NCBI GenBank assembly: GCA_937934275.1 | Contig: CALHAM010000021.1 | Span: forward strand, 1 to 64,000 | Length of the DNA stretch: 64,000 nt | Source of the DNA: an uncultured Saprospiraceae bacterium | GTDB taxonomy: Bacteria; Bacteroidota; Bacteroidia; Chitinophagales; Saprospiraceae | Direction of reading: 5' to 3' | Shown: positions 24,928-27,534 of the stretch, piece by piece | How the letters are laid out: each line of letters starts with the position of its first letter | Numbering within the stretch: position 1 is the first letter of the stretch | The notes under the pieces: model-generated | The model's input: the letters and a program-made list of their open reading frames with translations, nothing else | Told to the model about the DNA's origin: nothing | Databases searched by the model: none | Program-made: the position numbers and the translations under genes

Positions 24928-26439
24928 TTAGAGCCTACCCGTGCTGATTTTTTGCTCCAAATGAGGGGAAGGCGCTATCTGAGCAGCTTTGCGCCAATGT
25001 GCTACGGCCTTTTCTTGTTGCCCCGTCCAGTAAAGGGCATCGCCGTAATGTTCCAGAATACCCGCATGGCGTTCCCCTCCTTGACTAAGCATCTGCTCGT
25101 AGTGCTTCTGAGCGGCCACATAGTCTTTTTTTTGCAGGAGCACTCGCCCTATTTGGTCACCAATATCTAAGATCAGAGCAGGATTATTAACCGTCATCAA
25201 GTTCGCCTGTTCTAACGAAGAGGAGGCATCGTCTAATCGGCCCTTCTCCAGAGCCGCCACACCATAGTAATAGTAAGCTAGCGGCTGATTGGGAAAGTCA
25301 TCCATAGCCTGCTCCGATAGGCGCAGTAGCTCGTCGTAGTCACGTTTGCTGTAGAGAATCTCCAGCGTATTGGCCCATACCGAGAAGACGCGCGGATTGA
25401 GCTGGAGGCATTTGCGATAACGCGCCAGCGCCTCATCGTAGCGATTAGCATGATAGTAGAGGTCGCCCGAGAGGCTCCAGGCTTTTGCGTCGTCAGGGTG
25501 CACCTGTTCAGCAATATCGCCCAATTCGAGCAGCAGGGCTATGACCTCAGTAGACAACCCTTCGGCCATCTGGCTGAAGTAAGGGAACACCTGCTTAACC
25601 TTGCTGTCTATGGATATTTTCGGATCCTCGAAAACCCGCCTCAGCACTTGCAAATCGGTCAAGGTCGCACCGCCGCTCTTGCGATCGGTTAAGAGAGCCA
25701 TCTTTGCCGTCTCGTCGTCGGGGGCTATGCGCAAGATTTCCTCGTATACCTTGCGCGCAGCCGCTTTATCGCCGACGGACTCATATATTTGAGCGATGCG
25801 ATGCCGGTAGGTAACGCGATTCGGATAAGCATTGACCAGTCTTTGCAACTCGCTTACGGCTTTCTTTACGTCGCCCAAGCCCAGGTAAATCAGATGTTTC
25901 TTGTCGGCAATGGCCTCCGTGATGCCCGTAATCTTCTCAATTTGATCCAACGTATTTAAAGCGTCCTTGGGCCGCCCTGCCAACACTTGAAAGTAAGCTA
26001 GGCGTTCGAGAAAATCTTGATGGCGAGGCGCCTGCTTACACAGCGCTTGGTAGATACCGACAGCATCGGCGGGCTGGCCAATTTTCTCGAAAATATCCGC
26101 CTGAAGAATTTTGTACCACACGTTAGCCGGGTCGAGAGCCGCTGCCTTAGCAGCAGCTTCTAAAGCGCCGCGAAAATCGTTTTGCGCCTGCAACGCACGC
26201 GCCAAACCGTACCAAGCGGCGGCTTCGTCGCCATGAACGTCGAGGAATTTCCGGTATTTTTCCGCAGCCTTGTCGTAGTGTCCTAACTGACGCTCTAGCT
26301 CCGCCTCAATAAAAGCGCTTTGGCGATTGACCTCGCTCTCAGATACGCGTTTGGCTACACCTTGAAAGGTGTTCTGGGCCGGCAGCAAAACGATGCTCGC
26401 GCCCACAAGGAAGGAAAATATCAGCAAGCGTTGTAGCAC
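24928..26439 (-). CDS. Secreted/periplasmic tetratricopeptide repeat protein
   Basis: Signal peptide-like N-terminus and multiple TPR motifs (AAAWYGLARALQAQNDFRGALEAAAKAAALDP etc.). Confidence 0.88.
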   Translation of the reverse strand: MLQRLLIFSFLVGASIVLLPAQNTFQGVAKRVSESEVNRQSAFIEAELERQLGHYDKAAEKYRKFLDVHGDEAAAWYGLARALQAQNDFRGALEAAAKAAALDPANVWYKILQADIFEKIGQPADAVGIYQALCKQAPRHQDFLERLAYFQVLAGRPKDALNTLDQIEKITGITEAIADKKHLIYLGLGDVKKAVSELQRLVNAYPNRVTYRHRIAQIYESVGDKAAARKVYEEILRIAPDDETAKMALLTDRKSGGATLTDLQVLRRVFEDPKISIDSKVKQVFPYFSQMAEGLSTEVIALLLELGDIAEQVHPDDAKAWSLSGDLYYHANRYDEALARYRKCLQLNPRVFSVWANTLEILYSKRDYDELLRLSEQAMDDFPNQPLAYYYYGVAALEKGRLDDASSSLEQANLMTVNNPALILDIGDQIGRVLLQKKDYVAAQKHYEQMLSQGGERHAGILEHYGDALYWTGQQEKAVAHWRKAAQIAPSPHLEQKISTGRL

Positions 26440-26854
26440 AGTCGTTGTGTTTATGTGGTGAATGGGTAAGCATGCGCTCGAAAGCGCGCAATATGGCCTT
26501 CTAAAACCAATTGCAAAAGTACGCCAGCTCGACTATGCCGCCGCTAAACGCTTCTGCTCAGCGGCAAAACAGCAAGGCTCTTGTAACAATCAAAAATTAG
26601 CACTTTAAGCGCCAAAAGGCCCTTTGAAAGGTGTAACTCGGCCGCTCAAGCCCTGCTTGCTAAAAATTTTTTTAGAAAATTCGCTCAACAAAAGATTTAT
26701 TTGATCAACAAATTAGGCTAATTTGCTTAAAAGAAAGCATCCAAAAAGCGTTTTTTTTCATAAAAATACTCCTTTTTTCCCGAAACGACCTAAGACGGCC
26801 CTACTAAACTCATCAACAAATCGATTTTTTTGTTCTTTGCTGCGCCATAAGGCT

Positions 26855-26992
26855 GTCGCACTTTTGTATCGTCAACGGTATGGAAATGAAAGCGCGGCCA
26901 AATTGCGCGAGACTGTTGACCAAGAGATTTGCGACTTTTCATGAGATTATACGGGAAACCGCCGCGGTGCAAACGAGTACCGCGGTTTTTTT
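26855..26992 (+). ncRNA. Candidate structured small RNA with intrinsic terminator (family unknown)
   Basis: Nested pairings GTCGCA(26855-26860)/TGCGAC(26930-26935), GTCAACGGT(26871-26879)/ACTGTTGAC(26912-26920, one G-U), GCGC(26892-26895)/GCGC(26905-26908), then a terminator; no convincing protein in the interval. True 5' end unknown. Confidence 0.5.
26962..26992 (+). terminator. Rho-independent terminator
   Basis: Perfect CCGCGGT(26962-26968)/ACCGCGG(26979-26985) stem followed by T7 on the + strand, with no recognised + strand gene upstream. Confidence 0.75.
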
Positions 26993-27120
26993 ATATTTAT
27001 TTGGGCCTTCGAAAAGAGAAAAAACCAGAGGGCCGCCCGCACAGGCTTTACTTTTTCGCACTATGCAGGATGTTGCGTTTTGACTTCTCCAAAACCTAAA
27101 ATAGGCCGATGGCGTGCTAT

Positions 27121-27534
27121 TTAGCAATACGTATCGTAAGCCATCTTAAGGTTTTCCGCAATCATGTAAGCGGATCGGCCTTCGATGTGGCGGCGTTCGA
27201 GAAAGTGCACCAATTTGCCGTCTTTGAACAAGGCGATGCTGGGTGAGGAGGGCGGATAAGGAGCCAAATATTCGCGCGCTTTGGCGGTAGCTTCCTTATC
27301 TACGCCGGCGAAAACCGTCAGCAAGCGATTGGGTCGTTTGCTGTGCTGCAGCGACATTTTAGCGCCCGGGCGGGCGTTGGCCGCTGCACAGCCGCAAACG
27401 CTGTTGATAACTAGGAGGGTTACACCACTTTGATTTTCTAAGGCTTGCACTACCTCTTCTGGCGTGGTTAACGACTCAAAGCCGACGTCGGTCAGATCAC
27501 GCGCCATAGGCGCTACCAATTCTATCGGATACAT
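27121..27534 (-). CDS. BrxA/BrxB family bacilliredoxin
   Basis: VINSVCGCAAANARPGA CGC motif, PSIALFKDGKLVHFLERRHIEGR. Confidence 0.94.
   Translation of the reverse strand: MYPIELVAPMARDLTDVGFESLTTPEEVVQALENQSGVTLLVINSVCGCAAANARPGAKMSLQHSKRPNRLLTVFAGVDKEATAKAREYLAPYPPSSPSIALFKDGKLVHFLERRHIEGRSAYMIAENLKMAYDTYC

Follow-up and report, generated by a model that had tools for sequence, protein, structure and literature searches.

A multicopy RNA family of Saprospiraceae that probably pairs with start codons in giant surface-protein operons

The closest known system to the small RNA (sRNA) described here is FopS, which, like GibS, is an sRNA of Bacteroides thetaiotaomicron (PMC11697453, Nat Commun 2025). 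FopS occurs as multicopy paralogues that combine a single-stranded, conserved seed with a terminator hairpin, pairs near the start codons of outer-surface-protein operons, and is also found in a tailed phage; its seed lies at the 5' end and is followed by the terminator only, its targets are susC-like transporters, it works with RbpB (an RRM_1 protein), and it has been deposited in Rfam (PMC11697453). Several near-identical copies are a feature that the present sRNA also shares with LhrC of Listeria and Qrr of Vibrio, multicopy sRNAs cited in the same paper, of which LhrC represses the adhesin LapB (PMC11697453). Few studies have explored post-transcriptional control in Bacteroidota other than Bacteroides. 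A second point of reference is provided by leader-peptide attenuators and upstream open reading frame (uORF) control, in which a short ORF and then an intrinsic terminator precede the operon. PMC12121999 gives a bacterial uORF example.

We analyzed a 64,000-nt stretch of the genome of an uncultured Saprospiraceae bacterium (the window), in which TPR and bacilliredoxin genes, both on the minus strand, lie on either side of an intergenic gap (26440-27120). A preliminary description had proposed that the plus strand of this gap holds a structured sRNA with its own terminator, and conservation, covariation, a promoter-like block and multicopy occurrence now give that proposal strong support. Taken jointly with the mechanism set out below, the sequence in the gap is probably one paralogue within a multicopy family of trans-acting sRNAs (about 125 nt, seed CUUUUCAUGAGAUUAUA) in Saprospiraceae; this family was previously unlisted and is new. 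Its layout (Table 1) consists of a promoter block, helix 1 with a variable loop, CTTTTCATGAGATTATA(TA)CGGGAAACC, a terminator hairpin with loop GCAAACGAG, and a T run. The Bacteroidota promoter consensus is TTTG / TAnnTTTG, to which the block in the window is close, and such a block stands upstream of nearly all copies with both position and sequence kept; transcription would accordingly begin within the interval given in Table 1, probably at TATCGTC (26867 onward). Two relatives (G010 and G035) have the window copy between the same two neighbors; other copies adjoin genes that, from their sequence, we take to be lysS, recQ or asnS-like genes, so the sRNA is not bound to its neighbors. A PADLOC search of the neighboring genes for a defense-linked context gave no result.

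Table 1. Features of the sRNA locus and its flanking genes, in window coordinates
Feature	Position	Strand	Basis or remark
Promoter-like block	26836..26866	+	TTTG 26836-26839, 19-nt spacer, CACTTTTG 26859-26866
sRNA (predicted)	26867..26992	+	start about 26867-26873, end within T run
Helix 1, 5' arm GTCAACGGT	26871..26879	+	covarying helix
Helix 1, variable loop	26880..26911	+	holds non-conserved GCGC/GCGC; from alignment
Helix 1, 3' arm ACTGTTGAC	26912..26920	+	covarying helix
Core CTTTTCATGAGATTATA	26935..26951	+	almost invariant, single-stranded, proposed pairing site
Conserved CGGGAAACC	26952..26960	+	ATATACGGGAAACC instead in some copies
Terminator hairpin GCCGCGGTGCAAACGAGTACCGCGG, conserved loop GCAAACGAG, then T7	26961..26992	+	pattern scan
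TPR protein gene, flanking (context only)	24928..26439	-	Pfam
Bacilliredoxin family gene, flanking (context only)	27121..27534	-	Pfam Disulph_isomer

We evaluated the spread of the sequence by blastn over 101 related genomes, which returned it in 41 of the 42 genomes of the same genus and gave no match in the other genera sampled among the 101. Genomes of the genus often hold two to six matches, many of them arranged in tandem at spacings of 120-600 nt; a further contig of the window's genome holds a second copy, and the named public contigs that bear the core are mostly Saprospiraceae metagenome-assembled genomes. Covariation was tested on helix 1 and the terminator in an alignment of 39 copies. 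Across these copies 96.7% of cells are paired, 11 of the 18 pairs are changed on both sides, and cells with both-side changes number 96 (27 in shuffles); no covariation measure was reached by any of 500 shuffles, and shifted structures collapsed. Both-side changes fall in five of the eight modeled pairs of helix 1, and compensatory changes in six of the ten terminator pairs, where 100% of cells are paired. The nine-pair helix and the hairpin with its T7 run, both read from the window alone in the preliminary description, are thus present where it placed them and covary across the 39 copies. Within the core, TTTCATGAGATTATA shows no variation in any aligned copy. The covariance model matches the window at 26867-26996 (118 bits, E 2e-20), the window copy being among the sequences from which the model was built. 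The copies are paralogues that keep both seed and terminator, as multicopy trans-acting sRNAs do.

One locus of a different form (L012/L050, G004:C5:124388-124836) contains four core-plus-hairpin units about 129 nt apart, apparently in one transcript, with a promoter on the first unit alone and a full T run on the last alone.

The remaining structural proposals fared less well. The helices had been nested into a long rod, with GTCGCA (starting at 26855) paired to TGCGAC (starting at 26930) on the outside and GCGC to GCGC on the inside, and the rod had been loosely likened to 6S RNA. All of these segments exist in the window, and the rod does appear in the minimum-energy fold of 26700-27000; but the outer helix is complete in the window copy only and pairs to the same extent with its own as with swapped partners (3.11 of 6 in both cases), and the inner one sits in the variable loop and is unconserved. 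Because the outer helix lies within the promoter and lacks conservation, the rod is unsupported. Folding energy only modestly beats chance (z -2.1 for 26700-27000; z -2.3, 3 of 200 shuffles, for 26869-26992). We therefore give almost no weight to a 6S-like RNA, which would bind RNA polymerase as a long, internally bulged rod: the likeness to 6S RNA (RF00013) and 6S-Flavo (RF01685) lies in a rod predicted for one copy, whereas the conserved rod with a central bubble is absent, and multicopy tandem occurrence is not a 6S feature. No Rfam family, RF00013 included, matches the gap at its gathering score, and a permissive search (E<=10) gave nothing worth following; a search for RF00013 and RF01685 likewise found no match, one search having a silent control that makes it weak alone. 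The Rfam search also gave no FopS match, in a copy of the database that may or may not include FopS. The preliminary description had further allowed for a conserved protein, the hairpin then being the terminator of a small protein-coding gene. Both ORFs in question (26723-26944 and 26880-27083) exist, but between copies indels of 1-3 nt (for example, ATAC/ATATAC) break their frames in the core and stem, so that overlapping ORFs are not the explanation, and it is the RNA helices that covary; this reading, too, we consider hardly credible.

The proposed targets of the sRNA emerge from the distribution of the complement of its core. Besides the two sRNA copies, exactly two places in the window's genome match the reverse complement TATAATCTCATGAAAA with no more than one mismatch. 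Each is the start codon of a short leader ORF (beginning UAAUCUCAUGAAAAG...) that is followed by a terminator hairpin, and immediately downstream of each leader is an operon that encodes a small secreted protein (about 138 aa) together with a giant repeat protein; the same leader is present in further members of the genus. In a relative, the complete giant protein is 2,206 aa long and contains HYR domains as well as a type IX secretion system (T9SS) type A tail (TIGR04183 barely over its cut-off, the Pfam equivalent under its own). At the start of the giant gene itself, both operons of the window's genome carry a 12-nt complement, (A)TCTCATGAAAAA, and the complement spans 11-12 nt in most other operons examined. 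Among 216 sampled genes, TCTC precedes ATG in the two giant genes only, and the other 214 starts offer at most nine contiguous complementary bases. Complementarity of the seed to target translation starts, a further mark of multicopy trans-acting sRNAs, is thus found as well.

The small secreted protein (about 137-145 aa) also adjoins the giant protein at L239:4285-4698, L240:5535-5945 and L389:640-1074; these three gave no Pfam match, and the L239 and L389 copies also no NCBIfam match. At five loci (L273, L277, L281, L299 and L218) a farther copy of TAATCTCATGAG/TAATCTCGTGAG lies about 370-430 nt upstream of the small-protein gene, where it begins another short ORF (MSAGVPxxxRPxR-like), usually with TTTTAATCC before it.

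We assessed the complement across the genus by searching with a profile of the small secreted protein (seven sequences, found via the motif) and fetching 56 upstream stretches from the profile matches, 54 of which were not seeds of the profile. The antisense 11-mer TAATCTCATGA is exact in 10 of the 56 and within one mismatch in 23, compared with 0.01 and 0.5 expected from Markov resampling and with zero exact and at most two one-mismatch occurrences for permuted 11-mers; the upstream regions are related by descent and so are not independent trials. The other 33 profile matches, many of them weak, have no recognizable site. In the sense orientation there is no exact match in the 56 regions, which argues for RNA pairing over a DNA site. 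It is accordingly very improbable, in our judgment, that a transcription factor recognizes the motif as a DNA site in both sRNA genes and leaders: the same 11-16 bp do occur in both, but always in the sense orientation in the sRNAs and in the antisense orientation in the leaders, and the motif lies inside the transcript, is centered on AUG codons and, in the sRNA, has covarying RNA helices on either side. In some genomes the leader site is mismatched to the invariant seed with no compensating change in the sRNA, and duplex energies of full-length sRNA and leader do not exceed those of composition-shuffled controls; the predicted pairing signal is confined to the contiguous core.

Because the most conserved stretch of the sRNA exactly complements the start-codon region of the operons, base pairing probably turns them off. 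The seed would pair across the start codon of the leader ORF and, in the same operon, across that of the giant T9SS-exported HYR protein. With the leader ORF blocked, no ribosome would overrun the 5' arm of the leader terminator, the terminator could form, and the operon would stay off; pairing at the second site would directly stop translation of the giant protein. We consider repression of the giant-surface-protein operons by this twofold pairing probable: the sequence itself shows the RNA family with its structure, the complementarity and its specificity, and the layout of the leaders, whereas transcription of the sRNA, its pairing and the repressive sign are inferred. The leaders have the geometry that such a mechanism would need: in all 19 leaders with a strong terminator, the stop codon of the ORF that starts at the target AUG lies inside the 5' arm of the terminator, past it, or no more than 11 nt short of it, so that ribosomes translating the ORF should interfere with the hairpin, as translation of a short ORF can in a leader-peptide attenuator. 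The evidence for coding is moderate: leader peptides start with MKxNCT or a similar sequence and show synonymous codon changes, but the terminator lies so close to the AUG that a second reading frame also often reaches its stem. The leader resembles attenuators in placing a short ORF and an intrinsic terminator before the operon and differs from them in that its start codon bears the complement of the seed of a trans-acting sRNA; the strong variation of the leader sequence past the start leaves no obvious amino-acid sensing. Such a layout, with an sRNA acting at a leader ORF and a terminator forming as a result, would be one that has rarely been described.

The sign of regulation could also be the reverse, with the sRNA pairing to the leaders so as to activate or protect them through altered leader folding, or with the leader transcripts serving as sponges that draw it off from other targets. 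Strong terminators stand at the ends of the leaders, which could be short transcripts in their own right, the four-unit transcript of L012/L050 resembles a multi-site titrating RNA, and the type-2 relatives described below likewise have tandem units. The sites, however, lie on two AUGs, that of the leader ORF and that of the giant gene, where repression usually acts, and we regard activation or titration as unlikely, with repression the preferred reading.

The sRNA resembles FopS in its paralogous copies, its conserved single-stranded seed with a terminator hairpin, its predicted pairing near start codons of surface-protein operons and its link to tailed phages. Its seed, however, is internal, behind a covarying stem-loop; its predicted targets are a leader ORF and a giant T9SS surface protein; and a search of the window's genome for RRM_1 proteins of the RbpB kind found no match (the control was detected in Bacteroides). 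Because structure, target and partner differ, we describe it as working like FopS but do not file it as FopS. LhrC and Qrr belong to other phyla, have other sequences and structures, and are not known to have the layer of leader ORF and terminator; that layer sets the Saprospiraceae family apart as a variant within the known multicopy sRNAs. Since the family comes with a seed, a structure and a predicted operon as its specific target, its pairing is directly testable, and the family gives a handle on the timing of giant surface protein display in environmental bacteria.

Beyond the genus, the exact core pattern matches 36 of 395 Bacteroidia genomes, and in the 30 core loci that we read, a hairpin and T run follow the core in Saprospiraceae only, the others resembling chance. 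A related RNA (core GTTCATGGGATTATAATTTG or similar, plus hairpin) occurs in five other Saprospiraceae genera (g8, g61, g112, g118 and g137) and in the window's own genome, on contig C134. Matches to a 20-base pattern in Flagellimonas, Allomuricauda and a euryarchaeal bin had no covariance model match and were rejected.

A second sRNA type, type 2 (G000:C134:1726-1739, outside the window; L187, L241), has core AATGTTCATGGGATTATAATTTGTT and terminator GCCACGCC-ATAAGA-GGCGTGGC, with relatives at L329-L358, and is spread over several Saprospiraceae genera, partly as two- or three-unit core-hairpin arrays. In a search of 10 genomes for leaders to match its seed TAATCCCATGAA, nearly all of the matches were sRNA copies, and none resembled a leader.

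The core with its hairpin is also carried by five viral contigs (L140, L133, L139, L144 and L094), two of which (L133 and L144) have a terminase gene nearby, and by the integrase-bearing elements L093 and L095; L096 is like L093 in its tRNA-Met arrangement. This raises the question of whether phages steer host surface display. We tentatively suggest that a family-wide Saprospiraceae sRNA system, with two seed types that often occur as multi-unit tandems, may control giant T9SS proteins through the leader-ORF block and terminator, and that tailed phages and integrative elements may carry the core to manipulate the host surface, an extension that we hold with low confidence.

In the five viral contigs (L140:7112-7215, L133:4888-4991, L139:11313-11416, L144:1924-2022 and L094:12826-12949) the core stands right behind a TAnnTTTG-like promoter, with no 5' stem, and in L144 it follows the gene for the terminase large subunit. 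On the viral contigs L093 (4157-4324) and L096 (818-975), core and hairpin lie about 65-75 nt behind a tRNA-Met (CAT) gene.
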